Made by a program: the position numbers and the translations under genes. DNA of 64,000 nt from Cyrtodaria siliqua (taxonomy: Eukaryota > Mollusca > Bivalvia > Adapedonta > Hiatellidae), in NCBI GenBank assembly GCA_037043455.1, contig JAWPHD010003068.1, positions 166,026 through 230,025 of the forward strand, written 5' to 3'. Shown here piece after piece: positions 1,749-23,803 of this stretch (position 1 is the stretch's first letter; the number at the start of each line of letters is the position of its first letter). The notes under the pieces were generated by a model. It worked only from the letters and a program-made list of their open reading frames with translations, had not been told where the DNA came from and made no database searches.

Positions 1749-2124
1749 GCCTCCTGTGACTCCCAAACCTCTTATGGCTTAAAACTTCTTTAACTATACC
1801 CTCAACAACTCCTACATCTACTGCATCTACTTCATCTATTTCGAAATCGACGGACTCTGGTGCCACCAAGAGTCCACCAAATCCGACGAACTTTCCCAAG
1901 TGTTCGTCACCAAGCAGAACTGCTGCCACGGACGTGACAGCAAGAAAAAAGAAAACTCCCGGGTTAGGGAAGCAGTCAAAAGGATCTGATGATCCGATTG
2001 AACTGCACAACAGATTTGGAGACTTGGAGATGGAGGTTGATCCAGCTCATCTGGAACTCCCAAAATCTCCAAAGTCACCAAGGTCTGTCAAACCCAAAGG
2101 CCGTATACCCGTACTTCCGCCTTA

Positions 2125-5100
2125 GTGACGACAAAATCAAATAAGGTCATTCAATGGAACTGCCGAGGTTTAAAACCTAATTACGATGAAATCAGCTTAC
2201 TTTTAAATAAACACAACCCTGTTGCATTTTGTCTTCAAGAAACTTTCTTGAAGACTACTGATAAGATATCTTTTAATAACTATTCATTGTATGACCATAT
2301 TTGTGATACAAGTGATAAAGCTTCTGGAGGAGTTTCGATTCTTGTGAATCGTAACATTCCTCACTGAACTGTTGCGTTGAAAACTGGTTTGCAAGCTGTT
2401 GCTGTCAGTGTTACGATGCACAGAGTTATAACAATATGCTCCTTATATTTACCGCCCAGTTTTTCACTAGAACTTAAAGATTTAAATCACCTAGTTGCAC
2501 AATTGCCAACACCATTTATACTCTTGGGTGATTTTAATGCACACAACTACATTTGGGGTTGTAAGGATATTAACGATAAAGGCAAGAAAGTTGAAGATTT
2601 ATTAGCCAAAAATAATTTGTGTCTTTTTAATGATAACAAATCAGATACTTATTTACATCCAGTTCTTTACATACCACTTCCCCATATTTCTTGAAAATAT
2701 CGGCCCTCCACTTCTCGAAAAAATGTAACGATGGAAACTTCGCAAAGCTGATTGGGATACGTTTCAATCTCTTTGTGAGGAGCAGTTAAAGCCTTCTGTT
2801 TTTGAGGATGTCGAAGACGCAACTGCTCTTTTTACCAAAACCCTTCATGATATAGCTGATCAAAATATTCCAAAAACCTCGGCAAATCCAAAACGCCCAA
2901 ATAAACCATGGTACGATGATGACTGCAAAAAGGCAGTCAGCGATCGTAAAGCTGCATTGAATGCTTTTAACTTGCGGCCATCTCAAAATAATTTAGATAC
3001 TTTTAGAGTTTTTCGTGCGAAAGCCCGTCGTACTATTAACTATAGCAAGAGGAAATCCTGGAGATCTTATGTCTCTAGGCTGAACTCTCGTTCATCTCTT
3101 AAGAAGACGTTGGACATGGTCCGGAAAATAAACGGTAAAGGTAATTCTAGTTATGTAAATCATCTTAAAACTGATAATGAGGATATTACTTCTGTCAAAG
3201 ATATTACGAACACTTTGGCAGAAACTTTTTCTAAAAACTCTTCTTCTGAAAATTTTCAACCAAATTTTCAAAAAAAAAAAAGAAACTAAAAGAACAGAAG
3301 AAGCTGAATTTCAAGTCTAAAAATTTGGAGAAATACAATAAACTGTTCACTCTCAAAGAACTTCGAGAATCTCTTAAAAAGGCTCATGATACATCAGCTG
3401 GTCCTGATGATATCCATTATCAATTATTAAAACATTTACCTGAAACCTGTCTCTCTACACTTCTTGATATATTTAATAAGGTTTTGGTGACTGGAAACTT
3501 CCCCGATTCTTGACGGGAAGCAATCGTTATTCCAGTCCCCAAACCTGGAAAGGATCATACGGACCCAATAAATTATCGCCCTATTGCTTTAACGAGTTGT
3601 TTATGTAAAACCATGGAACGAATGTTTAATGAGAGACTCGTTTGGTACCCGGAATCCAACAACCTGATAACAAAGTATCAAAGTGGATTCCGGCGCCAAC
3701 GAGGCACAACAGACAATCTCATTCGATTTGAATCATTTATTAGGGAAGCTTTCGTAAGAAAGAACATCTAGCCGCTGTATTTTTTGACTTGGAGAAAGCT
3801 TATGATACTGCATGGAAGTACGGTATTATGAATGATCTTCATGACCTTGGTCTTAGAGGCCGATTACCCATTTTTATAGAGAAATTCTTAGATGATAGAC
3901 AGTTTCGTGTCCGAATGGGTTCAACCCTCTCTGACATTCATGAACAGGAGATGGATGTGCCAAAGGGCAGCATACTCTCTGTCACCCTTTTTAATATAAA
4001 AATTAACAGTATAGTTAAATGCATCAATCCTGGTGTGAATTGCTCTCTATATGTTGACTACTTTGTAATATGTTATCGTGCAAAAAACATGAACACTATT
4101 GAGAGACAACTTCAACAATGTCTCAATAAACTTCAGTCCTGGTCTGATGAAAATGGTTTTAAATTTTCAAAATCTAAAACTAATTGTGTGCATTTTTGTC
4201 AACTACTTAAACATCATGAAGACCCTCATCTAACACTGGCTGGGTCACCAATACCAGTAGTGGATGAGACAAAATTCCTTGGTCTTATTTTTGACCGTAA
4301 ATTAACGTTTATACCACACCTTAAATACTTGAAGGCCAAGTGCCTTAAAGCTCTTAATTTACTTAAAGTTGTTGCAAACACTAACTGAGGAGCTGATCGT
4401 AAAGTCCTCTTGCGACTTTACAGATCTCTTATCAGATCCAAGCTGGACTACGGCTCGATAGTATATGGATCGACTCGCAAGTCGTACTTGCAGATGCACG
4501 ATCCTATACATAATCAAGGATTACGACTCGTCTTAGGTGTCTTTCGTACATCACCAGCTGAAAGTCTATATGTTGAAGCCAATGAACCGACACTGTCTCA
4601 TAGACAGGACAAATTAGCCCTTCAATACGCCATTAAATTAAAGTCTAACCCTTCAAACCCAACTTTCGATAATGTTTTTAACCCAAGTTATGAACCTCTT
4701 TTTGATCGAAAACCGAAGACCATTCGATCATTTGGTCGTATTAAACCAAAATTGAGAGACACTGAAATCGACCTAAATTTAATTGCCAATTACAAAGTAA
4801 CACAAATTCCACCGTGGACTTTGGAAATACCAACAATTATTTTCAACCTTTGTAATAGTAACAAATCCAGTCCCCACTGTCTTTCAAAGCAAATTTAATG
4901 AAATTAAATCGAAATACAGTAACTTTCAACATATATACACAGATGGTTCTAAAGATGGAGATAAGGTAGCTGCAGCAGCTGTTGTTCACAAACACAGCGT
5001 AAAGAGCCGCCTGCCTGACAAGGCCTCTATCTTTTCAGCTGAACTTAAGGCAATTGAACTTGCCTTAAATTATATTCAGGAATCTGATGATGACCATTTT

Positions 5101-5718: not shown

Positions 5719-5885
5719 TTTATATTACTACCATATCATCCCTTATTTTTTAATAGTTTTATCTTGATATTTTTACATTAATTTTTTAATTAATCCTTCA
5801 TTTCTTCATCTTTCGTCAGTTTTTGCGCACAATATGACCTATTGATGTGTCGACGTGCCGTAAAACACCATTCATTCATTCATTC

Positions 5886-6340
5886 CTCTTAATGCATATA
5901 GAACATGTTAAGAATCGCAGTTTGTTTATACAGAAGTTTTCTTAAATTATCTCCCTTACTAATAATTCGCCATTTACACCTTGTACAAAGTCATAGTTCA
6001 TGCATGTCGGTAAAACACTATTTAGGTACCGACCATTTTGATTTCTGGGGGTGGCCTGGGATTTTTTTTGAAAAAATATTCTGGCTCGATATTAAAGGGA
6101 GTACATCAGGCTTTTCAAAGGGGTCTAGGGGTCCGACTTAAAATTGACAAATAATGGTATTTTCTATTTTAAAGCGCCTAAACATAATGAATGATGCTAA
6201 AAGTGACCCCTTAGTTACAAGGAAATTAATTCTGTACAGTAATACGTGCTATCCTAGGTGACGCACCAGGGTTAATTTCAGCATTTTATGGCCAATTCCG
6301 TCCTAGCTATATGGTGTATTCAAAGTTTAAACCTTAGCAA
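5886..6340. other. Spacer after LINE copy 1, with a 60 bp terminal-repeat relic
   Basis: No gene is visible here. At 6009-6070 the sequence aacactatttaggtaccg and the following 45 bases match the left end of the element starting at 23863 almost perfectly, then diverge after attctggc. This is probably an orphan end of that repeat family. The short open frame at 5905-6141 crosses the relic and has no recognisable domain. Confidence 0.5.
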
Positions 6341-6763
6341 TACACTTCTCAAAACTGCTAACTACACCGCTCACGTTTTGGGTTATATATATCGATGGGT
6401 TGAATGTTTTTCAATAAAATAAAAAGGAAATACCAATTCAATCATTTTTACATCATTTCATTTAATTTTTTTCATGGGCAATGCTAGAACTAAACCACAA
6501 TAAGCAATTACAAACGACCCATGTAAACACTAAAGTCACACTTTTATGAACAAGAAATGAAAAGTGTGACTTTAGTGTTTACATGGGTCGTTTGTAATTG
6601 CTTATTGTGGTTTAGTTCTAGCATTGCCCATGAAAAAAATAAAATGAAATAATGTAAAAATGATTGAATTGGTATTTCCTTTTTATTTTATTGAAAAACA
6701 TTCAACCCATCGATATATATAACCCAAAACGTAGCGGTGTAGTTAGCAGTTTTGAGAAGTGTA
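6341..6763. repeat. 423 bp near-perfect palindrome (inverted repeat with short loop)
   Basis: Two arms of about 205 bp face each other around a short loop (atgaacaagaaatga) centred near 6550. The left arm starts tacacttctcaaaac and the right arm ends gttttgagaagtgta. I see only scattered differences, for example ctcacgtttt against aaaacgtagc near the outer ends and one small indel. Sequence homology stops exactly outside 6341 and 6763. It could be a foldback or MITE-type element, or an inverted duplication. No coding capacity is seen. Confidence 0.85.
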
Positions 6764-6819: not shown

Positions 6820-7221
6820 TTATAATTTAAGATATTTGTAGAAAAATCCTGATCTACCCCCTTTAAGGGAATTAATGATAACTAGTGCTTCATTTAGTGT
6901 GGTATATTGGTCGCCTAAAATAGTACGACATGCTCTTCTCTGCAAACGTAATAACAGTTGTATGTTAGCTTTCTTTGTATTTCCCCATATTATATTACAG
7001 TAATCTAGATGAGGTTGAACATATGCCTTATAAAATATTATCCGGTAATTTAAAGGAATATATGATTTTATTCTTGACAGTAGCCAGATGTTGGTTGATA
7101 TTTTCTTACGAATATACATAATGTGATAATCCCACTTCAAGTGTTCATCTATATGCATTCCCAGAATTTTATCACCTGTTGTAAGTTGCAGTTCAATGTT
7201 ATTGTATGTTAATGACACCAA
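6820..7221 (-). pseudogene. LINE reverse transcriptase C-terminal fragment
   Basis: Open frame of 133 residues that matches the post-catalytic (thumb) part of CR1/L2/Jockey-type LINE reverse transcriptases. Recognisable stretches are ILGMHIDEHLKWDYHI, then RIKSYIPLNYRIIFYKAY, then HLDYCNIIWGN, then a Gln/Arg-rich LQRRACRTILG. The catalytic fingers and palm are missing, so this is a truncated scrap rather than a working enzyme. It lies just beyond the palindrome and before the satellite, and is on the opposite strand to the nearby full-length LINE. The exact clade cannot be settled from this piece. Confidence 0.7.
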
Positions 7222-7329
7222 CTGTTTTTAATCTATACTAATCGGTTATCAAATGAATTGATTAAGTCACCAATTTATTTTCACATTCACTGAAATAGTT
7301 CACTTATTCTATACATATGCAATCTTTTC

Positions 7330-8875
7330 ACTTATTTCACTATAGCACTATCTCTGTTTAAACTATTAAGAAATAATATTAACTTAGTCCACTATAGCAC
7401 TATCTATGTTAAAACTATTAAGAAATAATATTAACTTAGTCCACTATAGCACTATCTCTGTTTAAACTATTAAGAAATAATATTAACTTAGTCCACTATA
7501 GCACTATCTATGTTAAAACTATTAAGAAATAATATTAACTTAGTCCACTATAGCACTATCTATGTTTAAACTATTAAGAAATAATATTAACTTAGTCCAC
7601 TATAGCACTATCTATGTTTAAACTATTAAGAAATAATATTAACTTAGTCCACTATAGCACTATCTATGTTTAAACTATTAAGAAATAATATTAACTTAGT
7701 CCACTATAGCACTATTTCTGCTTAATCTTTTCACTTATTTCACTATAGCACTATCTCTGTTTAAACTATTAAGAAATAATATTAACTTAGTCCACTATAG
7801 CACTATCTATGTTTAAACTATTAAGAAATAATATTAACTTAGTCCACTATAGCACTATCTATGTTTAAACTATTAAGAAATAATATTAACTTAGTCCACT
7901 ATAGCACTATCTATGTTTAAACTATTAAGAAATAATATTAACTTAGTCCACTATAGCACTATTTCTGCTTAATCTCTTCACTTAGTTCACTATAGCACTA
8001 TCTATGTTTCTTAGTCCACTATAGCACTATCTCTGTTTAACCTCTTCACTTAGTTCACTATAGCACTATCTCTGTTTAATCTCTTCACTTAGTTCACTAT
8101 AGCACTATCTCTGTTTAATCTCTTCACTTAGTTCACTATAGCACTATTTCTGCTTAATCTCTTCACTTAGTTCACTATAGCACTATCTATGTTTCTTAGT
8201 CCACTATAGCACTATCTCTGTTTAACCTCTTCACTTAGTTCACTATAGCACTATCTCTGTTTAATCTCTTCACTTAGTTCACTATAGCACTATCTATGTT
8301 TCTTAGTCCACTATAGCACTATCTCTGTTTAACCTCTTCACTTAGTTCACTATAGCACTATCTCTGTTTCTTAGTCCACTATAGCACTATCTCTGCTTAA
8401 TCTCTTCACTTAGTTCACTATAGCACTATCTATGTTTCTTAGTCCACTATAGCACTATCTCTGTTTAACCTCTTCACTTAGTTCACTATAGCACTATCTC
8501 TGTTTAATCTCTTCACTTAGTTCACTATAGCACTCTCTCTGTTTAATCTCTTCACTTAGTTCACTATAGCACTATCTATGTTTCTTAGTCCAATATAGCA
8601 CTATCTCTGTTTAATCTCTTCACTTAGTCCACTATAGCACTATCTCTGTTTAATCTCTTCACTTAGTTCACTATAGCACTATCTCTGTTTAATCTCTTCA
8701 CTTAGTCCACTATAGCACTATCTCTGTTTAATCTCTTCACTTAGTCCACTATAGCACTATCTCTGTTTAATCTCTTCACTTAGTTCACTATAGCACTATC
8801 TATGTTTAATCTCTTCACTTAGTCCACTATAGCACTATCTATGTTTAATCTCTTCACTTAGTTCACTATTGCGCT
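7330..8875. repeat. Satellite with mixed 39 bp and 52 bp monomers
   Basis: About 35-40 tandem copies of a shared core, cactatagcactatct, joined by alternative linkers. The first part (about 7345-7940) uses a 52 bp monomer containing aagaaataatattaac. The second part uses a 39 bp monomer containing ttaatctcttcactt, mixed with a shorter monomer in which the core is joined by gtttcttagtc. Blocks of monomers recur in the same order, for example near 7990, 8190 and 8300. There are no genes. Confidence 0.9.
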
Positions 8876-9177
8876 ATTACCAATTGTGTATTCATGTCAC
8901 TTCTTGGTGTCCAATGATGCTAATATCAATAAATATATAACTCAGTATTGCTCTAGTATTGTCACTAAGCAATATCAATTACTATATATCTATAGCTCAG
9001 TATTGCGATAAGGCATATAATTCAGTCTGCAATTAACTAAGTAATTTCAATTACTATATATCTTTATATTGCTTAATCCATTTAATTCCGTCTTCATCAA
9101 CACAGTGCAATACCCAAATGCAACCATCTATTTTCACTTTCAATATCAAGTCTTTAATTCACCATTCAATAAGGATA
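8876..9177. other. AT-rich spacer between satellite and Naiad array
   Basis: No gene. It contains two or three degenerate copies of a stretch containing caattactatatatct (about 8978-9062), a short local duplication. The Naiad 3' end begins near 9178, judged from where other 3' UTR copies stop matching. Confidence 0.45.
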
Positions 9178-9648
9178 AAAAAATCGGACAGGGAAAGCAG
9201 CATTCAAGGAAGACAGTCAACCACAAAACACAAAAACAAACACGCAAACAGACAAACGAAAAGGTAAAAGTAATAAAAAATGCAAACGACATCACAAATA
9301 TAAAAAGGGTTGACAATAGGGCTACCGCCTTGGAACGGTCAGTGGCAAAGTAGGCCACTGGGGGTTTAAACCGGTTCTAGGGTGCACCAAACCTCACACT
9401 TACCCTACTGTCATCCCATTAAAACAGGACAGTGTAAATAAAGAAATCCCCACCATGATCTAAACTCTAACCAACAAGGCAGCATCAATAGGCAATATAA
9501 GTAAAACACAAATATGCTCGTGTAAATATAATACAAAAAAAACAATAGCCTAGAAAGCCACAATGAAGGTACTCAATGACTTGGCAGAAGCCAGAGCAGT
9601 AAGAGAATACACCATTAAGGGCACAACAAGAAAGAACATGGACAAACA

Positions 9649-9901
9649 TCAAACGCCACAATCCCAATGGGCTTTAGGTAGCCCCCACAGCTGTCCGGTC
9701 ATCGTACAATTAAAGAGGAAAGCATAGTGGCAAACTGTAAAAGGGTCCACCACCAAGCATGCAGTACGTTGCAAAATGATAGGATCATAACCTCTTTTGA
9801 TAAACTTTTTAACAAGTTTAACAAAGATAGTATGAAAGTGATCATGACCAAGAATCTTACGAAGTTTATAAATCACATCACCATAGAATTCAGGTTGTGA
9901 T
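9649..9901 (-). pseudogene. Naiad RT C-terminal piece, copy A
   Basis: Continues copy A after the LINE insertion with YGDVIYKLRKILGHDHF, then KFIKRGYDPIILQRTA. About 92 bp present in copy B (13917-14008) are missing at the junction, so the insertion was accompanied by a target deletion. The terminal codons differ from copies B and C because the stretch before the usual TAA stop is rearranged, and the frame ends at a TGA instead. The SECIS-like hairpin seen in B and C is degraded here. Confidence 0.75.
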
Positions 9902-11839
9902 TTTAATACTGTAGCCGAACCACTATTTAAGATAAATGTAATCATTAAGCCAGAGTGTACATTTAAAGAAACTGCATTTACCAAAGCAAAATGGTTTGAC
10001 AATGAATGTTTCGAAAAGAAGGTACATTATACAGAGGCTATAAAAGAGTTTAATGCGCATAGAAGTGATGCAAATCGTGTGGAATTTTGTGAAAAAAGAA
10101 AAGACTACAAGTTGCTAATTAAAAGGAAACGAAGGAGACATAATTTTATTGAGATGAAAAAAATTGAAAAACTGAAAGCAAAGCAACCTAAAGATTTTTG
10201 GAAATTGTTTACTAAAGCGAAAAGTAAAAAATGTGCTGATGTGAGCGTAAATGATTTTCTAGCATATTTTAAAAACTTAGCAACTGAGATAAATGTAGTG
10301 AAAAATGACGAGGATGAACAGTTTTGTGAATCGAATGATTTTGACAAAAACGACCCTATATTTCAAGAATTGGATATGGTCATAACGGAAGCGGAAGTGG
10401 AAGCTTGCATAAATTCACTCAAGCGTGGAAAGGCATATGCAGGGGACACTATTCTAAATGAATACTTTTTAGAAGCGGGCGATATATTGTTATCGCATTT
10501 AACGCAATTATTCAACATTATATTAGACAGTGGCTGTTTCCCGGAAAATTGGTCAGAGGGAATAATGATACCGTTATTTAAAAATGGAGATGAAAATGAC
10601 GTCAATAATTATCGGGGGATTACGTTGGTCAGTTGCATGTCGAAACTATTCACAGCAGTACTTAATAAGATAATAGCTGATTGGTGTGAAAAGCATAATG
10701 TACTATCCGATGCGCAATTCGGGTTTAGCAAGGGATTTTCTACGGTGGATGCAATCTTCACACTTCAAAGTTTAATTGAGCATACCTTAATAAATGGCAA
10801 ACGGTTATATTGTGCATTTGTTGACTTGAAGACAGCGTTTGATTCAGTGTATAGGAATGCATTATGGTTGAAACTTTACAGGCTTGGAATAAAATGTTAC
10901 GGATTATGAGAGCGATGTATGAAACAGTTAAATGTTGTGTTCGGCACTGTGAAAACTATTCGGACTTCTTCGAGGTGACGGTTGGTCTGAAGCAAGGGGA
11001 GACAATTTCGCCGATTCTCTTCTCACTCTTCATTGAAGATCTAGAACTATATTTGCAATCTAAACCCGACAGTGGACTTAATATTAAGGATGTCACCTTA
11101 ATGCTTTTGTATTTTGCGGATGATATGGCTATTTTGAGCGAGACACCCGAGGATCTGCAATGTAGTCTAAATAAGTTACATGATTACTGCTGCAAATGGG
11201 GTCTGGAAGTGAATACAGGCAAAACTAAGATCGTTGTTTTTAGACGGAGAGGTGGAATTTTAGTCAATGAGAAATGGACTTATTCGGGGGATCAGTTGAA
11301 AACTGTAAATGATTTTAATTATTTAGGCGTTGTATTTAACTATGCAGGATCCTTTATATTAAACCAACAAAACCTTTCTGGAAAAGGATTAAAAGCCATG
11401 GGAGTACTTTTGCATAATATAAAAAAGTATGACTTCACTCCTAAAACACTATGCCAACTGTTTGATTCCTTTGTAACATCAATTCTAAATTACGCATGTG
11501 AAGTATTGGGGAACACCAAATCAAAACAGTTGGAGAGAATACACTTAAAGTTTTGCAAAAAGGTGCTAAATGTGAAACTATCAACCAGCAACGCAGGTGT
11601 TTATGGCGAATTGGCTAGATACCCGTTATATATAAATATATTTTGTAGGATTATACAATATTGGTTTAAACTGTTATATACCAACAATTGTGTTTTAAAA
11701 ACTGCGTATGCCGTTTCACTAAGTGATTGTCTAACAAATAAAATAAATTGGACCGCTAATGTTAAGTCTTTGCTGTATAGTCACGGGTATGGATATGTAT
11801 GGGAGAATCCAGCGAGTGTTAACCCGAAATAATAAAAGT
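9902..11839 (+). mobile_element. 5'-truncated CR1/L2-like LINE inserted in Naiad copy A
   Basis: The boundaries are defined by comparison with Naiad copy B. Copy B sequence is continuous around 13916-14009, while copy A is interrupted after caggttgtgat (9901) and resumes at tttatggtaacgg (11840). The insert has no endonuclease region and no poly(A). It ends gaaataataaaag shortly after the ORF stop. There is no clear target duplication, and about 92 bp of target were lost. Confidence 0.8.
9950..11832 (+). pseudogene. LINE reverse transcriptase (FADD), one frameshift
   Basis: Reverse transcriptase of a non-LTR element of the CR1/L2-like group (the clade is an inference). The first frame (10079-10909, open further upstream) holds a Lys-rich region and the fingers: ITEAEVEACINSLKRGKA, NNYRGITLVSCMSKL and FVDLKTAFDSVYRNALW. 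The second frame (10864-11832) holds TVGLKQGETISPILFSLF, the catalytic box YFADDMAIL, VNTGKTKIVVF, the thumb (FNYLGVVFN) and a Cys-containing C-terminus. The frames join near 10890, where a few bases (not a multiple of three) are missing between YRLGI and the MLRIMRAMYE block. All catalytic Asp residues remain. The endonuclease is absent. Confidence 0.85.
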
Positions 11840-12611
11840 TTATGGTAACGGTAACCCTGATTGAGTAACTTTTTAGTTATACAAAGATTACGAATATTAA
11901 AGTCCTCAACTCGAGTACAAGCTCTAGAAAAACGAATGAGTTGAGACGGATACACCCAATAAGAAGTTGCTCGGGGAACATCCCCATCCAAATGGGGATA
12001 ATTAACAATGTCAAAATTAAAATCATCTCTCTTGTCATAGATTTTGCTAATTATTTTACCATTTTCAATCGAGAGATCTAAATCAAGAAAAGAAGCGTTA
12101 TTATCAGATATATTTTCTTTATTAAACCGAAGTTCTTTAGGATAAATATTATGAACCATAGTTTGAAAGAAAGGGTTGTCAATGTTCAGTATGTCATCCA
12201 GATACCGAGAGCTGTCATTAAAAGCGTCAGTAACATCTGCCTGGGTATCTTGTGAAAGACCCAACATGAAATCCCTTTCATAGCAAAATAAAAACAAATC
12301 TGCGACAAGTGACGCACAGTTCGTTCCCATAGGGATACCAACAATTTGTCTATAAACGGTGGTACCATACCTGACGAAAATATTATCTAATAGGAAGATG
12401 AGTGCTTCACAAACTTCATAGCAAGTCCACATAGTATCATTGTCTAAACTGCCGTTAGTGAAAAACGCTTTAATATTATTACATGCCAAAAATGTAGTAT
12501 TTTCTCTAGCGAATGTTTTTTGAATAAGAGAAATTAGCATGTCTTTAATAAGGTGATGTGGTAAGGTTGTATATAGTGTAGAGAAGTCATAAGTACTTAT
12601 TGATGAAACTA
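11840..12611 (-). pseudogene. Naiad reverse transcriptase palm domain, copy A
   Basis: Part of a Penelope-like reverse transcriptase, the RT family closest to telomerase. The intact catalytic core is visible: motif A (STYDFSTLYTTLP), motif B (GIPMGTNCASLVADLF), motif C (RYLDDIL) and downstream blocks FLDLDLSIENGKIISK and YDKRDDFNFDIVNYP. No stop occurs between the truncation at 12611 and the LINE junction. The N-terminal linker and endonuclease are missing, and upstream the frame runs into copy C UTR sequence, giving a chimeric start. The frame ends at the inserted LINE, so the C-terminus is separated at 9649-9901. Confidence 0.85.
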
Positions 12612-12922
12612 GACTCAATGACTTGGCAGAAGCCAGAGCAGTAAGAGAATAAACCATTAAGGGCACAACAAGAAAGATCATGGACAAACATCAAACGCCA
12701 CCGTCCTAATGGGCTTTAGATAGGCGTGATCATAGGGTCCACAGCCTGTCCGGTCGTCGTACAATTAAAGATGAAAGCATAGTGGCGAACTCTAAAAGGG
12801 TCCACCACCAAGCATGCAGTACGTCGCAAAATGATAGGGTCATAACCCCTTTTGATAAACTGTTTAACAAGTTTAACAAAGATAGTAGGAAAGTGATCAT
12901 GACCAAGAAGCTTACGAAGAAA
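12612..12922 (-). mobile_element. Naiad copy C, a short fragment (RT C-terminus plus partial 3' UTR)
   Basis: This piece carries the RT C-terminal coding end (GHDHFPTIFVKLVKQ, YDPIILRRTACLVVDP), a TAA stop at 12716-12718 and the start of the 3' UTR. It is cut at both sides: at 12922 it is fused to the 3' end of copy B, and at 12611 to the RT of copy A. This head-to-tail truncated arrangement is the kind of tandem structure reported for Penelope-like elements. Confidence 0.75.
12690..12733 (-). promoter_or_regulatory. SECIS-like hairpin, Naiad copy C
   Basis: Read on the minus strand, ATGA is followed by 12 bases, then AAAG, a small CCCATTAGG hairpin, a return strand GGTGGCGTT and TGAT. ACGCC pairs with GGCGT, and ATC pairs with GGT around one bulged T. 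The quartet-helix-AA-helix-GA order matches eukaryotic SECIS architecture (form II). The ORF stop TAA lies exactly at the AA bulge. Folding was judged by eye only. Confidence 0.4.
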
Positions 12923-12969
12923 TACAAAAAGATCGGAATGGGAAATTAGCATTCAAGGAGGACAGTCAA

Positions 12970-13219
12970 ATATATATGTATTTTGGGGTTTCTGTTGTAA
13001 TTTGTAAATTACCCAAATTCCTTTTATTTTGCTGTGGGGAAATTACTCCAAATAAAACTAGTATTGCTAAAAAGCAATTACTTAAGTAATATTAGCATTG
13101 CTTAAGAATTAGTTAGTATTGCTTAAGCAAATCTAAATATGAGTAATTTCCCCACAGCAAAATTAAAGGAATTTGGGTAATTTACAAATTACAACAGAAA
13201 CCCCAAAATACATATATAT
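12970..13219. mobile_element. 250 bp MITE with perfect terminal inverted repeats and a 5 bp TSD
   Basis: Both ends begin atatatatgtattttgggg when read inward, and the inverted repeats extend about 79 bp with a single mismatch. The element is flanked by GTCAA at 12965-12969 and 13220-13224. The uninterrupted sequence acagtcaaccacaaaac is present in copy A near 9209, so the empty site is visible in the same window. There is no coding capacity. The superfamily is unknown. Confidence 0.92.
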
Positions 13220-13249
13220 GTCAACCACAAAACACAGAAACAAACAGGC

Positions 13250-13675
13250 AAACAGACAAACAAGAAGGCAAAGGCAATATTAAACACAAAAGACAACACA
13301 AACACAAAATGGTTGACAATAGGGCTACCGCCTTGGAACGGTCGGTGGCAAAGTAGGCCACTGGGGGTTTAAACCGGTTCTAGGGTGCACCAAACCTCAC
13401 ACTTACCCTAATGTCATCCCATTAAAACAGGACAGTGTAAATAAAGAAATCCCCGCCATGATCTAATCTCTAACCAACAAGGCAGCATCAATAGGCAATA
13501 TAAGTAAAACACAAATATGCTCGTGTAAATATAATACAAAAAATCGATAGCATAGAAAGCCACAATGAAGGTACTCAATGATTTGGCAGAAGCCAGAGCA
13601 GTAAGAGAATAAATCATTTAGGGCACGACAAGAAAGATCATGGACAAACATCAAACGCCACCGTCCCAATGGGCT
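13250..13675 (-). other. Naiad 3' UTR, copy B
   Basis: Non-coding part of the element, conserved with copy A (9178-9648). It holds a long-range pairing (GACATTAGGG near 13420 with CCCTATTGTC near 13318, one mismatch), an internal hairpin (GTGGC...GCCAC) and T-rich segments. Short open frames on both strands here are not genes. Confidence 0.65.
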
Positions 13676-13693
13676 TTAGGTATGCGTCATCAT
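13650..13693 (-). promoter_or_regulatory. SECIS-like hairpin, Naiad copy B
   Basis: Minus-strand order is ATGA, 12 bases, AAAG, a CCCATTGGG mini-hairpin, GGTGGCGTT, TGAT. ACGC pairs with GCGT and ACC with GGT, with an A/T-G mismatch between. An overlapping second ATGA lies three bases further on. The structure straddles the TAA stop (13676-13678) of the RT frame, so it would sit at the very start of the 3' UTR. In eukaryotes a SECIS is needed for UGA to be read as selenocysteine, and the same element has three candidate UGA codons. Confidence 0.45.
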
Positions 13694-16019
13694 AGGGTCC
13701 ATAGCCTGTCCGGTCATCGTACAATTAAGAGGAAAGCATAGTGGCGCACTGTAAAAGGGTCCACCACCAAGCATGCAGTACGTTGCAAAATGATAGGGTC
13801 ATAACCTCTTTTGATAAACTTGTTAACAAGTTTAACAAAGATAGTATGAAAGTGATCATGACCAAGAATCTTACGAAGTTTATAAATCACATCACCATAT
13901 AAGTCAGGTTGTGATAGTCCTTGTCGCAGAAGAGTCCTTAAATAACTCTTATATTTAGAAAGAAGATCAGGATTACGATAATACAATTTTGCAAAGGTTT
14001 TACGAAGTTTATGGTAACGGTAACCCTGACTGAGTAACTTTTTAGTTATACAAAGATTACGAATATTAAAGTCCTCAACTCGAGTACAAGCTCTAGAAAA
14101 AACGAATAAGTTGAGACAGATACACCCCATAAGAAGTTGCTCGGGGAACATCCCCATCCAAGCGGGGATAATTAACAATGTCAAAATTGAAATCATCTCT
14201 CTTGTCATAGATTTTGCTAATTATTTTACCATATTCAATCGAGATATCTAAATCAAGAAAAGAAGCGTTATTATCAGATATATTTTCTTTATTATGCTGA
14301 AGTTCTTTAGGATAAATATTATGAACCATAGTTGGAAAGAAAAGGTTATCAATGTTCAGTATGTCATCCAGATACCGAGAGGTGTCATTAAAAGCTTCAA
14401 TAACATCTGCCTGGGTATCTGGTGAAAGACTCAACATGAAATCTCTTTCATAGCAAAATAAAAACAGATCTGCAACAAATGGTGCACAGTTCGTACCCAT
14501 AGGGATACCAACAATTTGTCTATAAACGGTGGTACCATACCTGACGAAAATATTATCTAATAGGAAGATGAGTGCTTCACAAACTTCATAGCAAGTCCAC
14601 ATAGTATAATTATCCAAACTGCCGTTAGTGAAAATAATTAATATTATTACATGCCAAAAATGTAGTATTTTCTCTAGCGAATGTTTTTTGAATAAGAGAA
14701 ATTAGCTTGTCTTTAATAAGTTGATGTGGTAAGGTTGTATATAGTGTCGAGAAGTCATAAGTACTTATTGATGACACTTGACCTTTATTGAAAATTTTAT
14801 CAAGAACGTCTCCTGAATTTTTTATAGACCAAAATAAATTAATACCAGAGTTTTCATAAGTTTTATCACAATATAGTTTAACGTGATCTTTAACGGCAGT
14901 AAGACAGGAAGTTAAAAGTTTTGAGATGTTTGTTGTGGTACAGGCACTAGAATTAGAAATAAAGCGAGCCTTATACGGATTTTTATGTAATTTAGGAATC
15001 CAGTAAATGGTAGGCAGTTTATTTTGCTTATCGTTTACACCAGTCTTGAAAGTAGTGCACCGAGTGATATGTGCGGAAACAACATCATCCTCAGTAGAAT
15101 TAACTCGAGTATACGAATAGGTGCTGCCGAGTTCCAGAAATAAAACATTGACGTAAGGTAGGCGTCAAACAATAATTACATTATTAGCTGCTTTATCTGC
15201 AGGAACTAAAACAAATTTATTATGAAATTCCTGAATTCCCGATTTTAGATTACGAAAGGAAAACCTAGGTCTCTGAGGTAGTAAAGAGGGATTAGCATTA
15301 TAAAAGTTAATACGTGTATCTATAATTTTAAGAATAGACTTTTTCCAAGTAGAAAGCGAGTTTGGGTCCGCATGTTCTCTACGACACCATTTTATACTAA
15401 AATCTTCAATGGAGTGGGCGATCTGGGCACGACAGGCATTAACATCAATAGCTGAAGGTAATCTATATTTAGGACCTTTCGAAAACAAATGCCGAATACG
15501 TTTATCAACAATATCAAAATTACCAGTGATGACATGACCTGCTGGAGCATAGCAAAATTTTGATGTGTTGCATTCACGTTCCTTAGGAGTATTATGTACT
15601 ATATCAAGGTCAGAAACTATTTTGTTGTAGTTGAAAATAATATTTCTAATAGGCTTTTTATACTTATAACAAATTACAGGACTTTCAGAATATTTGAAAT
15701 ATTTTTAGATAGAATCAATTACATGAGTATCCCGAAAAATACTGGGCATGTCAATGAAATCAATACCTTTATTAATATATAGTAGTTTTAGAAAATGCCT
15801 GACGTGATCAGACTGCTTGTAAATATGGGGTCGGAGAACATGTTGTGTGTAGCTTTGAACTATGGAAGCAGTGTTATACAAGGGATCTGTACGAATGAAA
15901 ATGTTGTCGGCTTCCTCGTCGATCAACTTTAGTGAAGACATCGACAAAAAGACAACGGCTGCCTCGTCAGGCACGTACGATATTTCCCTTACAAGTGCAG
16001 GTTCCCTTTGGTTGGACAT
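13676..16019 (-). pseudogene. Naiad linker and reverse transcriptase, copy B, with a candidate Sec codon
   Basis: Starts near the ATG at 16019 (MSNQREPALVREI). It has a linker with a Cys motif (ECNTSKFC, the first Cys of the usual CxC replaced by Arg), an N-terminal RT region (FSKGPKYRLPSAID, FVLVPADKAANNVIIV), an in-frame TGA at 15165-15167, IYWIPKLHKNPYKARFIS, motif A (TYDFSTLYTTLP), motif B (GIPMGTNCAPFVADLF), motif C (RYLDDIL) and the C-terminal GYDPIILQRTACLVVDP. In the relatives I know, the TGA position is a Cys, so it may encode selenocysteine. True damage is one TAA (15705-15707), a 2-base deletion near 14635, an extra A near 14096 and a lost A near 13728. The catalytic Asp residues are intact. 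Later mutations have inactivated this copy. Confidence 0.8.
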
Positions 16020-16021
16020 TT

Positions 16022-16885
16022 TGTGTGTATTTATGTTCATCCAACTTATTGTCAATACCGTTTATAAAGTTGTATAACTTTGATATATGAGTTACACTTT
16101 CAATTCAAAGTAAAATAAATTCCGTCTGACTTTCCAAGTAAGTCAGACAAGTACAAAACTATACTATAGTTCTTAGTGCCTTGCTTTCCACTTTGACAAT
16201 AATGAACTCAGGTTACCTGCACTTTGTATGGCCGAAAACGAAACATAAAATAGGGTTTTCTGTTGAAATAAGGAAAACGGATTTATGTTTTGACAGAGAG
16301 CCGGGGCGTTTGGTACTCTCAGTACTCTGACAAGGCTAAGCAGACGATTATGCACTCTTAATGTCTGTGAAGCTGGCCAATCACCAATTCGGGGACCAAT
16401 ATCCCTTGTCATGGATATCCCTCTAGGGAGGTATTGAAGACAGACGCCATTTTTCTGCGAGAGAGTCAGGTCTGTCAACCCTTTTTCCCTAACCTCCCCA
16501 CCATCCACCTTCATTGTGTGCGTCTGTCGTTGCTTGCAAAAGCGGACATATACGTGCCTTCTGATACCTCAACGCCCTGTTTCTCTGTCGGCAAACGTCC
16601 TTGAAATGTATATCATTTTTCTTACCTAGTCATTTAATTGTATCATGCTAGTCACGTGTGTGTATTTATGTTCATCCAACTTATTGTCAATACCGTTTAT
16701 AAAGTTGTATAACTTTGATATATGAGTTACACTTTCAATTCAAAGTAAAATAAATTCCGTCTGACTTTCCAAGTAAGTCAGACAAGTACAAAACTATACT
16801 ATAGTTCTTAGTGCCTTGCTTTCCACTTTGACAATAATGAACTCAGGTTACCTGCACTTTGTATGGCCGAAAACGAAACATAAAA
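16022..16885. mobile_element. Insertion flanked by identical 224-229 bp direct repeats (TRIM-like or pseudo-LTR)
   Basis: The repeat at 16022-16250 recurs at 16657-16885, with no difference that I can see. Between them lie about 406 bp of unique sequence with no meaningful ORF. Each repeat starts TGTGTGTATT and contains an end CGAAACA followed by taaaa, so a TG...CA LTR format is possible. I see no convincing primer-binding site or target duplication. It separates the endonuclease and RT frames of Naiad copy B. The alternative is a Penelope-type pseudo-LTR or a local duplication. Confidence 0.5.
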
Positions 16886-17794
16886 AATTACACGCGATTT
16901 ACGTTTGATGTTACCATTACGCCTAAGACCATGAGACCTAGATTTACGCTTTCGAATAGAAAATATAGAATACATGTCAATATTAGGATCTTTAGAAATA
17001 TTTCCTTCTTGATAAATATTGTCATTAAGGCCGCGTGGATAAGGTGTCTGTAAGTTTTTCATCCACTTAAGTTCTGCAATATGTCTAGTTTTTATTTTGA
17101 AGCTTTTAGTAGCATCATTATCAAAAAATAAATATTCAACCGGTTGAACAGTTACGTAATTAAAATTATGACCTGACTGACGAAAGTGTTGGTACAAGTA
17201 TTTTTTTAACTTTTTAAGATTACTTGCATTATATTTGTGTTCACGAAATCGAACTTTTAAGGATCGACTTGTTTGTCCAACATATTGTATACCGCAAAGT
17301 GGTGCATTTCAAGTCAGAACATAAATGACGTGAGTAGTACGTCAATCAACATTTGAAGCTAGAAATACATTAAACAATCTACCATTAACAGCTGATTTAA
17401 TGGTGGACTTGCACGATAAATAATTGCAACAACTGCACCTCTTAGCATTGCAATTATGAATAGAGGGAAACACCCTGCGTCTTGAATGAACTAAATGATT
17501 TCTGAAAGGAGACTTTATATGGTATTTCCTCAAAACAGGTGATCCTAGATGAGTTACGGAAACTTTTGAGCCATTATTAAAAACCCTAGTAATATTATTA
17601 GAAGGAACATGAAACGAGGTTGCCGAATGGAGATTTAAAGGTTTAAGGCGTACATATGGTTTGGTTCTAAGAAATGAAGAGTTATTTTGTGGAATTTGTA
17701 TAGATGACGCAGAGTGTAACCGAAGAGGTGAAATATTTATTTTTAAAGTTTTAGCTAAAAGACTCATAATTGTTTTTATGGAGAGTAATACCAT
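16883..17794 (-). CDS. Naiad N-terminal GIY-YIG endonuclease with two candidate selenocysteine codons
   Basis: GIY-YIG nuclease that would nick target DNA. Residues 1-115 from the ATG at 17794 are basic and Ser/Asn-rich. A Cys cluster follows (CNAKRCSCCNYL), then a TGA at 17342-17344, TTHVIYVLT, a second in-frame TGA at 17309-17311, NAPLCGIQYVGQTSRSL, KVRFREHKYN (catalytic Arg and His), HFRQSGHNF, and the end block ELKWMKNLQTPYPRGLND. The GIY-YIG strand pair reads VIY...QYVG. Both stops in this frame are TGA, and both fall where Penelope-type endonucleases carry Cys; the second is the first Cys of the CCHH motif. No other stop or shift occurs through 304 codons. A TAA lies upstream of the ATG. 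The frame then runs into the repeat-flanked insertion. Confidence 0.75.
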
Positions 17795-18815
17795 TCTGTG
17801 AAACGCGAAATAAAGGCCAATAAGTATTTATTAGAGATACGAAATAGAATCGTATCAAAGATCCATAAGAAATAATATTAGTAAACTTACGGACTGTTAA
17901 AAGAGGTCCAAAACTCACGTCAGTGTCTAATGCAAGATAATGAGGAAAGTTAAGGAAAATATCCCTCTACAACATTCCAAAACATAAACTTTAGAAGTTC
18001 TACCATCTCGACAACTTGACTTTTCAAACAGCTGTTCGCTATTGTCCAAAACTACTTACTCAAAGTCACGTGTTCATAACGGCGGTTAAACAGAGAACAC
18101 TCAACTCTAATACAAATCTGGTCAAAGGGAAACAACTCTTATAACATGGATAAAATTACCCTGTTACACTAACATGATGGTCTATGTGAAAATATGGGTG
18201 GTCCAAGTCCACTTAGACTCCTTTTAATGTGATAAGAATCAACCGACTGCTCGTGACTTAGCAGAGGGCTAGACGGGCGGTCAGATTAGCCCGATCTGAT
18301 CAATCGGTGTGTCACGCTCGCTATACGGGATCCTAGCTTCTTGTTTAATTCAAATCTCTCTCAACGCCTCTCGTTTAATATCTTGTTCCCTTTTATTTTA
18401 TCCTGTTTAAACATAATGTGGAAAGGATCCTTTATTGCGGTGGCGCTCGGGCTTATCATGTATTTCTGAACGCTATATGCAGGGGTGTCATTAAGAGGCG
18501 GGAGGCGGGAATTTCGCCCTGCTACTTTGACTGGTCTACCCAGCTACTATGAACACTTTTACTAGTATTTTATACAAGTATCGATAAAAATACGCGGTAA
18601 TTCTGCTATGTGGGCCGTTGACTTATAAAGATAATGACACCCCTGTATATGGCTATACTCATGCCTCTTTTAAACGGAACATAAGTGCGGCTCTTCGACC
18701 TTTTAGTTAAGGGGTTATGTCCGCTGGGTGGTATGATGTGTTAGTTTTATATGAGTATACTCTTCACGTATTCTAGGCATTTGTCTGTCGGATATCCACA
18801 GCAAATGTCCCCTTG

Positions 18816-20175
18816 TTGGACTCCGAGGTGGGTGGGAAGCGTAAACGTTCCAGAAATGGACCAGGACCTCAGTCAGACTCTGAGTCTGACTCGGACACTG
18901 GAATATCACAGCTGAATTGGCCTCGATTTCTTAATGTTATATCATTAGATGAATCCCGACCTATCACAAATGTCTCTACTTTTCTATCTCTAAGGCTTTA
19001 CTCGGCATTGCCGATGAGCCGAGAAGTGTTAAGAAACTTAAAAACCATAAACTTCTTGTCGTGTGTGACCGTAAATCACACTCTGACAACCTTCTTAAAA
19101 TCAGATCTTTTGTCAATATCCCTCAACACCTCAAAAGGTGTGGTACGCTCTAGGGAACTGGAGCACTGCACCGTTGAGGAAATCACAAGGTGTGACTGAA
19201 GTAGTTCCTTTAAATACAAGGCGGAGTGGCATTCTTACTCCTACTAATACATTCGTGCTTACTTTCAGCTCACCAACTCTTCCTAAAACGATTAAAACTG
19301 GATATATTATTATACCAGTAGATCCTTTTATCCCAAACCCTCTCAGATGTTTCACTTGCCAAACGTTTGGGCATCATCGAGAAAGATGCAAGAGAATTGC
19401 CGTTTGCGCGCGCTGTGGCCAACAGGGTCACAGCAATTTCTCTAATTGCAAAAATCCCGCCTCTTGCGTTAATTGCAAGGGGGCCCAGGGGTCTTTCTCG
19501 AAAGACTGTCCGAAATGGAAACACGCGAGAGAAATTCAGAAAATAAAAATAGAAAAAAATATCTCCTTTCCTGAAGCTAGGAAACTTGTTGAGAGCCTTA
19601 CTCCGCCCACTCCATCTGGCAAATCATATGCCGATGCGAGTAGGGTTGAGAAACCGGCTACCAGGTCAATCGCGGCGCAGACCGTGGTGACCTGGCCAAT
19701 AGGCTCCGACGGGTTTACTACTTTACCACTCTCTGTTCAGAATTCCTCTACAACCGCTTCAGCTTCACAAACTGTGGTCCTTTCAAATAAGCCTCCTGTG
19801 GCTCCCAAACCTCTTATGGTTTCCAAGCCTAAAACTTCTTCAACTATACCCTCAACAACTCCTACATCTACTGCATCTACTTCATCTATTTCGAAATCGA
19901 CGGACTCTGATGCCACCAAGAGTCCACCAAACCCGACGAACTCTTCCAAAGGTTCGTCACCAAGCAGAACTGCTGCCACGGACGTGACAGCAAGAAAAAA
20001 GAAAACTCCCGGGTTAGGGAAGCAGTCAAAAGGATCTGATGATCCGATTGAACTGCACAACAGATTTGGAGACTTGGAGATGGAGGTTGATCCAGCACAT
20101 CTGGAACTCCCAAAATCTCCAAAGTCACCAAGGTCTGTCAAACCCAAAGGCCGTATACCCGTACTTCCGCCTTAG
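18816..20175 (+). pseudogene. LINE ORF1 (gag-like), copy 2, frameshifted
   Basis: An N-terminal frame (18816-19199) reads LDSEVGGKRKRSRNGPG, then an acidic Ser/Asp run (SDSESDSD). A second frame (19138-20175) holds TRRSGILTPTNTFVL, the CCHC knuckles (CFTCQTFGHHRERC, CARCGQQGHSNFSNC, CVNCKG) and a long Ser/Thr/Pro/Lys-rich tail ending in KSPRSVKPKGRIPVLPP. The frames are split by a 17 bp deletion at about 19182 (copy 1 has gacgcttaacctc there) and by the frameshift shared with copy 1. Its TAG stop at 20173-20175 overlaps the start of the ORF2 frame by one base, so ORF2 may have been reached by reinitiation. Confidence 0.75.
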
Positions 20176-23100
20176 TGACGACAAAATCAAATAAGGTCAT
20201 TCAATGGAACTGCCGAGGTTTAAAACCTAATTACGATGAAATCAGCTTACTTTTAAATAAACACAACCCTGTTGCATTTTGTCTTCAAGAAACTTTCTTG
20301 AAGACTACTGATAAGATATCTTTTAAAAACTATTCATTGTATAACCATATTTGTGATACAAGTGATAAAGCTTCTGGAGGAGTTTCGATTCTTGTGTTAC
20401 AATGCACAGAGTTATAACAATATGCTCCTTATATTTACCGCCCAGTTTTTCACTAGAACTTAAAGATTTAAATCACCTAGTTGCACAATTTAGACACCAT
20501 TTATACTCTTGGGTGATTGTAATGCACACAACTACATTTGGGGTTGTAAGGATATTAACGATAAAGGCAAGAAAGTTGAAGATTTCTTAGCCAAAAATAA
20601 TTTGTGTCTTTTTAATAACAAATCACATACTTATTTACATCCAGTTACAGGCTCTCATTCTTCCATTGATTTAACAATATGCGATCCAACGCTCTTGATG
20701 GATTTTTCGTGGAGTGTTGGTGACGACCTATGTGGAAGTGACCACTTCCCCATATTTGCTGAAAATATCGGCCCTCCACTTCTCGAAAAAATGTAACGAT
20801 GGAAACTTCGCAAAGCTGATTGGGATTCGTTTCAATCTCTTTGTGAGGAGCAGTTAAAGCCTTCTGTTTTTGAGGATGTCGAAGACGCAACTGCTCTTTT
20901 TACCAAAACCCTTCATGATATAGCTGATCAAACTATTCCAAAAACCTCGGCAAATCCAAAACGCCCACATAAACCATGGTACGATGATGACTGCAAAAAG
21001 GCAGTCAGCGATCGTAAAGCTACATTGAATGCTTTTAACTTGAGGCCAACTCAAAATAATTTAGATACTTTTAGAGTTTTTCGTGCGAAAGCCCGTCGTA
21101 CTATTAACGATAGCAAGAGGAAATCCTGGATATCTTATGTCTCTAGGCTGAACTCTCGTTCATCTCTTAAGAAGACGTGGGACATGGTCCGGAAAATAAA
21201 CGGTAAAGGTAATTCTAGTTGTGTAAATCATCTTAAAACTGATAATGAGGATATTACTTCTGTCAAAGATATTACGAACACTTTGGCAGAAACTTTTTCT
21301 AAAAACTCTTTTTCTGAAAATTGTCAACCAAATTTTCAAAAAAAATAAGAAACTAAAAGAACAGAAGAAGCTGAATTTCAAGTCTAAAAATTTGGAGAAA
21401 TTCAATAAACTGTTCACTCTCAAAGAACTTCGAGAATCTCTTAAAAAGGCTCATGATACATCAGCTGGTCCTGATGATATCCATTATCAATTATTAAAAC
21501 ATTTACCTGAAACCTGTCTCTCTACACTTCTTGATATATTTAATAAGGTTTTGGTGACTGGAAACTTCCCCGATTCTTGGCGGGAAGCAATCGTTATTCC
21601 AGTCCCCAAACCTGGAAAGGATCATACGGACCCAATAAATTATCGCCCTATTGCTTTAACGAGTTGTTTATGTAAAACCATGGAACGAATGTTTAATGAG
21701 AGACTCGTTTGGTACCCGGAATCCAACAACCTGATAACAAAGTATCAAAGTGGATTTCGGCGCCAACGAGGCACAACAGACAATCTCATTCGATTTGAAT
21801 CATTTATTAGGGAAGCTTTCGTAAGAAAGAACATCTAGCCGCTGTATTTTTTGACTTGGAGAAAGCTTGTGATACTGCATGGAAGTACGGTATTATGAAT
21901 GATCTTCATGACCTTGGTCTTAGAGGCCGATTACCCATTTTTATAGAGATATTCTTAGATGATAGACAGTTTCGTGTCCGAATGGGTTCAACCCTCTCTG
22001 ACATTCATGAACAGGAGATGGATGTGCCACAGGGCAGCATACTCTCTGTCACCCTTTTTAATATAAAAATTAACAGTATAGTTAAATGCATCAATCCTGG
22101 TGTGGATTGCTCTCTATATGTTGACGACTTTGTAATATGTTATCGTGCAAAAAACATGAACACTATTGAGAGACAACTTCAACAATGTCTCAATAAACTT
22201 CAGTTCTGGTCTGATGAAAATGGTTTTAAATTTTCAAAATCTAAAACTAATTGTATGCATTTTTGTCAACTACTTAAACATCATGAAGACCCTCATCTAA
22301 CAATGGCTGGGTCACCAATACCAGTAGTGGATGAGACAAAATTCCTTGGTCTTATTTTTGACCGTAAATTAACGTTTATACCACACCTTAAATACTTGAA
22401 GGCCAAGTGCCTTAAAGCTCTTAATTTACTTAAAGTTGTTGCAAACACTAACTGAGGAGCTGATCGTAAAGTCCTCTTGCGACTTTACAGATCTCTTATC
22501 AGATCCAAGCTGGACTACGGCTCGATAGTATATGGATCGACTCGCAAGTCGTACTTGCAGATGCACGATCCTATACATAATCAAGGATTACGACTCGTCT
22601 TAGGTGTCTTTCGTACATCATCAGCTGAAAGTCTATATGTTGAAGCCAATGAACCGTCACTGTCTCATAGACAGGACAAATTAGCCCTTCAATACGCCAT
22701 TAAATTAAAGTCTAACCCTTCAAACCCAACTTTCGATAATGTTTTTAACCCAAGTTATGAACCTCTTTTTGATCGAAAACCGAAGACCATTCGATCATTT
22801 GGTCGTATTAAACCAAAATTGAGAGACACTGAAATCGACCTAAATTTAATTGCCAATTACAAAGTACCACAAATTCCACCGTGGACTTTGGAAACACCAA
22901 CAATTATTTTCAACCTTTGTAATAGTAACAATTCCAGTAAAGACCCCGCTGTCTTTCAAAGCAAATTTAATGAAATTAAATCGAAATACAGTAACAGTAT
23001 ACTTTCAACATATATACACAGATGGTTCTAAAGATGGAGATAAGGTAGCTGCAGCAGCTGTTGTTCACAAACACAGCGTAAAGAGCCGCCTGCCTGACAA

Positions 23101-23803
23101 GGCCTCTATCTTTTCAGCTGAACTTAAGGCAATTGAACTTGCCTTAAAATATATTCAGGAATCTGATGATGACCATTTTGTGGTCTTTTCTGATTCCCTT
23201 TAATCTCTTCAAGCACTGGGTAATATGAAACATGATAACCCAGTTGTGCTTCAACTTTTAGAAAAGTACAATTCTCTTATAATTGCTAAGGCAGCATTAG
23301 GTCTACATATACCTAATACCAATTTACCTTATACTGATTTTAAAAGTTGTATTAAATTTAACACATATATTCGTAACTCTTGGCAAACCGCTTGGGATTT
23401 GTCAGTTAACAATAAACTCCATTCAAGTAAACCGTTACTCGGAGAATGGCGTTCTTCTAGTAGACGCATTCGTCGAGAGGAAGTTGTCCTAGCCCGGTGC
23501 AGGATAGTGCATACACGTTATACTCATTCATATTTATTACAAGGTGAGCAATTACCAGAATGTGTACCCTGCTTTGCACCGTTAACGGTCAAACACATAT
23601 TACTGGAATGTGTAGACTTTGATCATATGCGTCAAAGGTACTACAATGTTAATACTATGACCGAGTTATTTAATACTATAGATTTTAGTCTAGTTTTAGA
23701 TTTCTTGAAGGAAGTCAGACTATATAAATATTATAATATGTACTTGTATATATTTACCTTTTTATATATCCGTTTTTGGGCATTTGTTGATTTACATATT
23801 TAG
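20175..23803 (+). pseudogene. LINE ORF2 (APE endonuclease - RT - RNase H), copy 2
   Basis: Order: endonuclease (VIQWNCRGL, LQET, GDCNAHN with the usual Phe changed to Cys, HSSIDLTICDP, GSDHFPI), RT (GPDDIHYQLLKHLPE, WREAIVIPVPKPGKDH, INYRPIALTSCLCK, FFDLEKACDTAW, VPQGSILSVTLF, LYVDDFVICY), RNase H (YIHRW/YTDGSKDGDK, AELKAIELAL, FSDSL) and the C-terminal Cys/His block. The RT catalytic YVDD is intact, unlike in copy 1. Breaks: about 90 bp missing at 20397, TAA at 20794-20796, a shift at TAG 21836-21838, TGA at 22453-22455, a shift in the RNase H start near 23003, and a TAA near 23201. Three of these are shared with copy 1. Confidence 0.85.

Follow-up and report, generated by a model that had tools for sequence, protein, structure and literature searches.

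The stretch analysed here, a window of 64,000 nucleotides to which all coordinates refer, occupies the end of a 230-kb contig in the 2.88-Gb Cyrtodaria siliqua assembly and contains copies of a Naiad retroelement. Naiads are permuted Penelope-like elements that join an N-terminal GIY-YIG endonuclease to a C-terminal reverse transcriptase (RT), and are further marked by CCHH and CxC motifs, an insertion-in-fingers domain, pseudo-long terminal repeat (LTR) ends and the lack of a hammerhead ribozyme. One copy, here called copy B, carries three in-frame TGA codons, which are treated below as candidate selenocysteine (Sec) sites, and a downstream hairpin that resembles a Sec insertion sequence (SECIS). 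Its features, including those of its open reading frame (ORF), are as follows:

16886..17794, minus strand: N-terminal part of the Naiad ORF with the GIY-YIG endonuclease, cut by an insert at 16885 (from the open frame and relatives)
17342..17344, minus strand: TGA, putative Sec site 1, at residue 150 (numbered from V17791)
17309..17311, minus strand: TGA, putative Sec site 2, at residue 161, where the CCHH set next to the GIY-YIG domain has its first Cys
15165..15167, minus strand: TGA, putative Sec site 3, which follows PADKAANNVIIV in the RT, family-frame residue 587
13714..16021, minus strand: RT of copy B in three frame pieces, YLDD motif present
13641..13701, minus strand: candidate SECIS (Rfam SECIS_1), 32.5 bits
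16022..16885, no strand assigned: LTR-like non-autonomous insert with 229-nt terminal direct repeats (from repeat analysis)

On re-reading the frames, the three TGA codons are found where the initial annotation had placed them. Those at 17344-17342 and 17311-17309 share one frame, which runs from the ATG at 17794 to about 16886 and contains no other stops, and the codon at 15167-15165 lies in the RT frame. The same annotation had named a TAA as the only other nonsense codon; this TAA (15707-15705) does fall at a non-Cys site of the RT frame, but the RT also changes frame near 14640 and 14100 and has a 1-nt deletion near 13728, none of which had been listed. In addition, a 0.86-kb insert with terminal direct repeats at 16022-16250 and 16657-16885 splits the nuclease from the RT. 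Copy B carries this insert, and the duplicate Naiad copy in locus L027, just before the window, does not. By eye the insert begins near TG and ends with CA, and with its identical repeats it resembles a small non-autonomous LTR element. Given the TAA, the insert, the frame changes and the deletion, copy B is dead, and the selenoprotein question therefore concerns the family rather than copy B. Our reading is that copy B is a decayed Naiad-type Penelope-like retroelement, and that its family very probably encodes a selenoprotein with three UGA codons.

The identification as a Naiad follows the order and motifs of the element. In the window the nuclease precedes the RT, and a relative that is 97% identical over the RT (P0012) spans both in a single frame; recurring open frames of 598 and 922 amino acids (see below) also favour one ORF. 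The CCHH residues are position 161 (Cys/Sec), C166, H185, H202 and H208, and the three histidine columns are at least 90% conserved across 53 rows. The CxC motif between nuclease and RT reads CEC in P0012, CDC in P0014, CSC in P0039 and CKC in locus L009, and is REC in copy B. No hammerhead ribozyme is present among the seven Rfam matches up to E=10 in 8500-18300. The copy B nuclease matches Pfam GIY-YIG (PF01541) at E=0.0025 and 18.5 bits, under the cut-off of 22.6, and a Pfam search of the copy B RT pieces returned no family. An AlphaFold2 model of the nuclease from the 53 rows has a mean pLDDT (predicted local distance difference test) of 57.1, with core blocks mostly at 70-91, and a Foldseek search of it against the PDB gave nothing at E <= 0.001; no claim about a metal site is drawn from this model, because it is too weak. 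The initial annotation had assigned two Sec residues to the nuclease zinc site. Residue 161 occupies the first Cys position of the C..C..H..H set, and residue 150, which may or may not belong to such a site, lies just upstream of it. Site 3 is presumably in the RT fingers region.

The first line of evidence comes from the other copies of the element in the genome. With the nuclease DNA as query, 41 matches were obtained (3394 candidates, 40 scored), one short match being left out, and the set read base by base consists of 38 fetched copies, copy B and the copy in L027, 40 in total. The L027 copy is near-complete and has TGA at all three sites; it is not independent of copy B, because both lie inside a duplication of about 18 kb. 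Among these 40 copies, site 17344 is TGA in 39 and TGC in one, and site 17311 is TGA in 39 and TAA in one, while the 277 other nuclease codons contain nine stops altogether (eight TAA, one TGA and no TAG). Site 15167, read in 41 copies, is TGA in 40 and AGA in one, with seven further stops over 132 other RT codons. Stops at other codons amount to about 0.001 per codon and copy. A later set of 13 stretches has TGA at site 3 in 12, the thirteenth being the same AGA copy. Inspection by eye of eight copies, read piecewise, showed no further conserved TGA after site 3.

Protein searches of the genome extend these counts, with a bias toward well-preserved and recent copies because the matches are the best-scoring ones. 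For the nuclease, 131 matches were scored among 11041 candidates, and 128 of them contain at least two TGA codons, with totals of 272 TGA, 42 TAA and 7 TAG. Twenty further copies were then read by base, comprising the three exceptions and the 17 lowest-scoring of the others; TGA is present in 18 of 20 at each nuclease site, the remaining codons being TTA and TGT at site 1 and TGG and TAA at site 2. Pooled, TGA is found in 57 of 60 copies at site 17344, 57 of 60 at site 17311 and 40 of 41 at site 15167. For the RT, 114 matches were scored among 41738 candidates, and all except the AGA copy (113/114) contain at least one TGA. The open frame is exactly 598 amino acids long in 28 of the 131 nuclease matches and by position ends at site 3; 20 of the 28 have two TGA codons and no other stop, and the 11 of them that were read at site 3 are all TGA. 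A frame of 922 amino acids, seen in 9 of the 114 RT matches, equals the distance from site 2 to the UAA that ends the ORF, an assignment made by length.

Several simple accounts fail against these numbers. The copy counts (39/40, 39/40 and 40/41 TGA) leave no room for chance or for decay confined to copy B. For the copies read in the genome, a consensus Trp or Arg codon is ruled out by the single TGG in 60 copies at site 17311 and the single AGA in 41 at site 15167, and a shared frameshift behind the recurring 598-residue frame by the TGA at site 3, where that frame ends. The initial annotation had expected TGA or TGC/TGT at these positions in most copies, with other stops rare, and this is the pattern observed (TGC/TGT in 2 of 60 at site 17344); the random mixture of stops or the TGG or CGA consensus that would have spoken against it is not seen in the genome.

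Comparison with relatives places Cys at the same three positions, as had been proposed. The comparison drew on the 94 relatives listed for the nuclease and, for the RT, on the best 120 of 2124, and no relative was confirmed to lie in a viral contig. The most informative is L009 (QIJL01000205.1, a contig of a metagenome-assembled genome), a Naiad-like open frame of 1013 codons that contains no TGA and carries Cys at each of the three positions; in L010 the RT site is Cys. For three random stops on the L009 codons, of which 31 of 1013 are Cys, the probability that all fall at Cys is about 3e-5, and that all are also TGA about 1e-6, a rough estimate in which codons and stop types are taken as equally likely. 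In the 24 aligned relatives that cover the nuclease sites, site 1 is Trp in 21, Cys in one, Ile in one and a gap in one, and site 2 is Trp in 18, Cys in five and Pro in one. Site 3 is covered by 114 of the 175 relatives matched to the RT piece, with Cys in 67, Trp in 38, another residue in six and a gap in three. A further 24 of the 175, which are 50-97% identical (most 50-71%), end exactly one residue before site 3. In-frame UGA codons opposite Cys in homologues, a mark by which selenoproteins are recognised, thus appear to be present in this family. Cys at the RT site and in L009 bears out the initial annotation, with the qualification that the nuclease sites are mostly Trp.

The second line of evidence is the hairpin. 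Copy B matches Rfam SECIS_1 at 13701-13641 with 32.5 bits (E = 0.0023 over all Rfam families), and its hairpin, folded alone, takes a SECIS shape. Two further Naiad remnants lie in the window:

11836..12919, minus strand: second Naiad copy, partial
12681..12741, minus strand: SECIS-like element of the second Naiad copy, 26.8 bits (match 12741-12681), under the cut-off
9216..9901, minus strand: third Naiad fragment, 3' end only

The lowest-energy fold of the second copy is not SECIS-like, and the SECIS region of the third fragment (9639-9690) has lost the AUGA core together with 9 nt from its 5' arm. Elsewhere in the genome the match is stronger. In a scan of nine of 17 contig loci (86 kb, mostly selected because they contained Naiad matches), SECIS_1 exceeds its cut-off of 35 bits at five places, each in a Naiad 3' end (39.5, 39.4, 38, 38 and 35.6 bits), and no other RNA match reaches gathering level in these nine loci. 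Among 20 fetched 3' ends, 16 contain the region and 15 match SECIS_1, nine of them above the cut-off and at up to 40.1 bits. The core is AUGA/UGAU with an apical AAA, and the spacing fits SECIS_1. In an alignment of 16 copies (14 distinct; 13 within the contig loci), 93.1% of cells are paired, against 32-48% for shifted partners, and three pairs change on both sides. L009 gave no SECIS match in its 4.6-kb contig. A SECIS would accordingly be situated downstream of the UGA codons in the mRNA, provided that the transcript includes it. In several of the 3' ends from L105-L124 a GUGA recurs in place of the AUGA core, and these perhaps form a subfamily with a variant core.

In most copies read at the 3' end, the ORF of this family also runs into its own SECIS. 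Of the 16 fetched 3' ends with this region, 15 have an ORF that continues into the hairpin, ends in ..MMTPT or a close variant, and has its UAA stop in the apical loop; 14 of these 15 match SECIS_1. The corresponding UAA of copy B is at 13678-13676, although its RT ends early through the 1-nt deletion, a change that L107 shares. The AUG AUG A of the ORF end makes the AUGA core. For the C-terminal piece 17 relatives were matched, and ten of them (49-52% identity) stop at the corresponding residue and close with ..MMxxT. A C-terminus shared by relatives at only about 50% identity suggests an old origin for the overlap of ORF and SECIS. The ORF of L009 ends before the stretch that holds the SECIS in the copy B family. 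We lean, by a narrow preference, toward a dual-purpose 3' end, in which the last seven codons and the UAA would serve as the SECIS 5' arm and part of its apical motif, with termination inside the SECIS. If this is true, Sec decoding and termination would compete for the same RNA, and transposition would be tied to selenium.

The host genome contains the tRNA that this would need. Seven tRNA-Sec matches exceed the Rfam cut-off, and the anticodon is TCA in the three that were checked; only matches above the cut-off were counted, because control genomes give matches below it. The host Sec machinery thus seems to be present, as judged from tRNA-Sec. Five of the seven matches (L158, L159, L160 and four more) score above 75 bits, and the multiple loci may be haplotigs or a true amplification.

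Variation among the copies points to constraint on the coding sequence beyond the TGA codons. Variants present in one copy are neutral-looking, with 217 nonsynonymous and 62 synonymous changes (about 3.5:1 is expected), whereas those common to at least four copies, a cut-off of our own choice, number 7 and 10 (Fisher p = 0.0018 against singletons). Downstream of the TGA codons the latter class is 3 to 7 (p = 0.0013). When variants of two or three copies are pooled with those of at least four, the difference persists (p = 0.005 overall and p = 0.024 downstream). These numbers are small and the copies share descent, and the pattern favours, at that level, selection on the protein.

The initial annotation had proposed a candidate selenoprotein, and the proposal gains support from the fixed TGA codons, the SECIS, the host tRNA-Sec, the Cys-containing relative in which no SECIS was found, and the synonymous excess in shared variants. 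In the mechanism that we envisage, the host Sec machinery (tRNA-Sec, together with SBP2 and eEFSec) would read the three UGA codons as Sec, under the direction of a single SECIS hairpin in which the ORF ends. Comparison with relatives makes 17767-17765 the likely start Met, and the single ORF, nuclease first and RT second, would then be about 1,075 codons long; by arithmetic, its UGA codons fall at about 142, 153 and 579. The GIY-YIG nuclease would contain two Sec residues, of which one would take the place of the first metal-site Cys and may take part in metal binding, and the RT would contain the third. If Sec were not inserted, ribosomes would terminate after about 141 residues, short of the nuclease core, and mobility would for this reason depend on selenium.

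Several observations weigh against a selenoprotein, and there are three alternatives. The best placed of these, although very unlikely, is that the TGA codons do end translation and have become fixed through common descent in a non-autonomous lineage, which other elements copy in trans. The copies of the first nuclease search are 96-100% alike, and those read are the best-scoring and mostly within about 7% of copy B; much of the agreement on TGA could for this reason derive from few source copies. Copy B and some other copies carry further damage, and the variants found in two or three copies are near neutral (32 nonsynonymous to 15 synonymous, weak against singletons at p = 0.11; 19 to 6 downstream, p = 0.37). 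True stops would leave it unexplained, however, that all three are TGA and all at L009 Cys columns, that the same elements carry a SECIS, that variants of at least four copies are mostly synonymous even downstream of the TGA codons, and that 24 relatives, most of them only 50-71% identical, end at the same RT codon.

Slightly less probable still is readthrough of UGA as another residue (Trp, Arg, or Cys by a near-cognate tRNA) without Sec. Trp is the commonest residue in relatives at the nuclease sites (21/24 and 18/24), and at the RT site it is listed for 38 of 114. A true Trp (TGG) in these relatives is possible. The relatives are known as proteins alone, and the Trp entries fit TGA translated by gene callers with a code in which TGA is Trp; many of the Trp rows at the nuclease sites appear to be one family, and single relatives (P0008 and P0041) have Trp at other Cys columns. 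Against such readthrough stand the Cys residues of relatives (67 of 114 at the RT site, and every one of the three sites in L009), the SECIS above the Rfam cut-off and the host tRNA-Sec.

The remaining points concern the hairpin. The copy B SECIS, at 32.5 bits, falls short of 35, and all Rfam matches in the window stay under gathering score. Column shuffles of the alignment are modest in their support, as the number of cells paired was as high in 7 of 500 and covariation in 8 of 500, while both-side changes were as high in 77 of 500 and pair types in 225 of 500. That the hairpin is instead a structure by which the RT recognises its own RNA, SECIS-like by chance, would suit its place at the 3' side of the element, its presence in 5'-truncated fragments too, and folds that are moderately better than shuffles in copy B (z -1.73) and no better in the second copy (z -0.28), yet this is equally improbable in view of the AUGA and UGAU cores, apical AAA and spacing that fit SECIS_1 at up to 40.1 bits, and of the Cys-only L009, which has no SECIS match. 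The selenoprotein reading is therefore retained for the family of copy B.

The window contains other repeats as well. The tandem duplication of about 18 kb (window 1-6000 and 18145-23700, with L027) consists of blocks that are 96-100% alike, and the L027 Naiad copy and copy B are the two versions within it. Long, near-perfect (99%) inverted repeats are present at 12970-13048/13141-13219 (79 nt) and 6373-6732 (173 nt), and the former gives a microRNA family match under its cut-off. Tandem arrays with spacings of 52, 39 and 29 nt occupy 7217-8924. RVT_1 reverse transcriptase ORFs of other retroelements are found on the plus strand:

3789..4385, plus strand: RVT_1 ORF
10079..11829, plus strand: RVT_1 ORF
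21245..21835, plus strand: RVT_1 ORF

Selenoprotein-encoding Naiads as a kind have already been reported: Craig, Yushenova, Rodriguez and Arkhipova reportedly described, in Mol Biol Evol in 2021, Naiads that evolved multi-Sec selenoproteins in clams and spiders. Among the papers available to the search, none links Penelope-like elements with selenocysteine or selenoproteins. Those Naiads are reportedly like the present family in their N-terminal GIY-YIG, C-terminal RT and several in-frame UGA codons at Cys positions; what is documented here for the copy B family is the overlap of the ORF end with the SECIS. L009 shares the order of nuclease and RT, Cys at the three equivalent sites, and the CxC and CCHH residues, but differs in having no in-frame TGA, no SECIS match and an ORF that ends before the SECIS stretch. 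Selenoproteins of mobile elements are rare, and the sequence evidence that three UGA codons are translated in one transposon ORF is strong. It raises the questions of whether selenium supply limits transposon activity, and of how a SECIS functions with ribosomes terminating inside it. A partial parallel for the latter is the GPX4-like selenoprotein of fowlpox virus (Mix et al. 2007), which, according to PMC6769590 and PMC8310308, has a functional SECIS inside its ORF. Both systems place the SECIS in translated sequence downstream of a Sec codon, whereas the fowlpox protein is a single-Sec viral enzyme and the copy B family is a retroelement with three UGA codons and a stop inside the SECIS loop.

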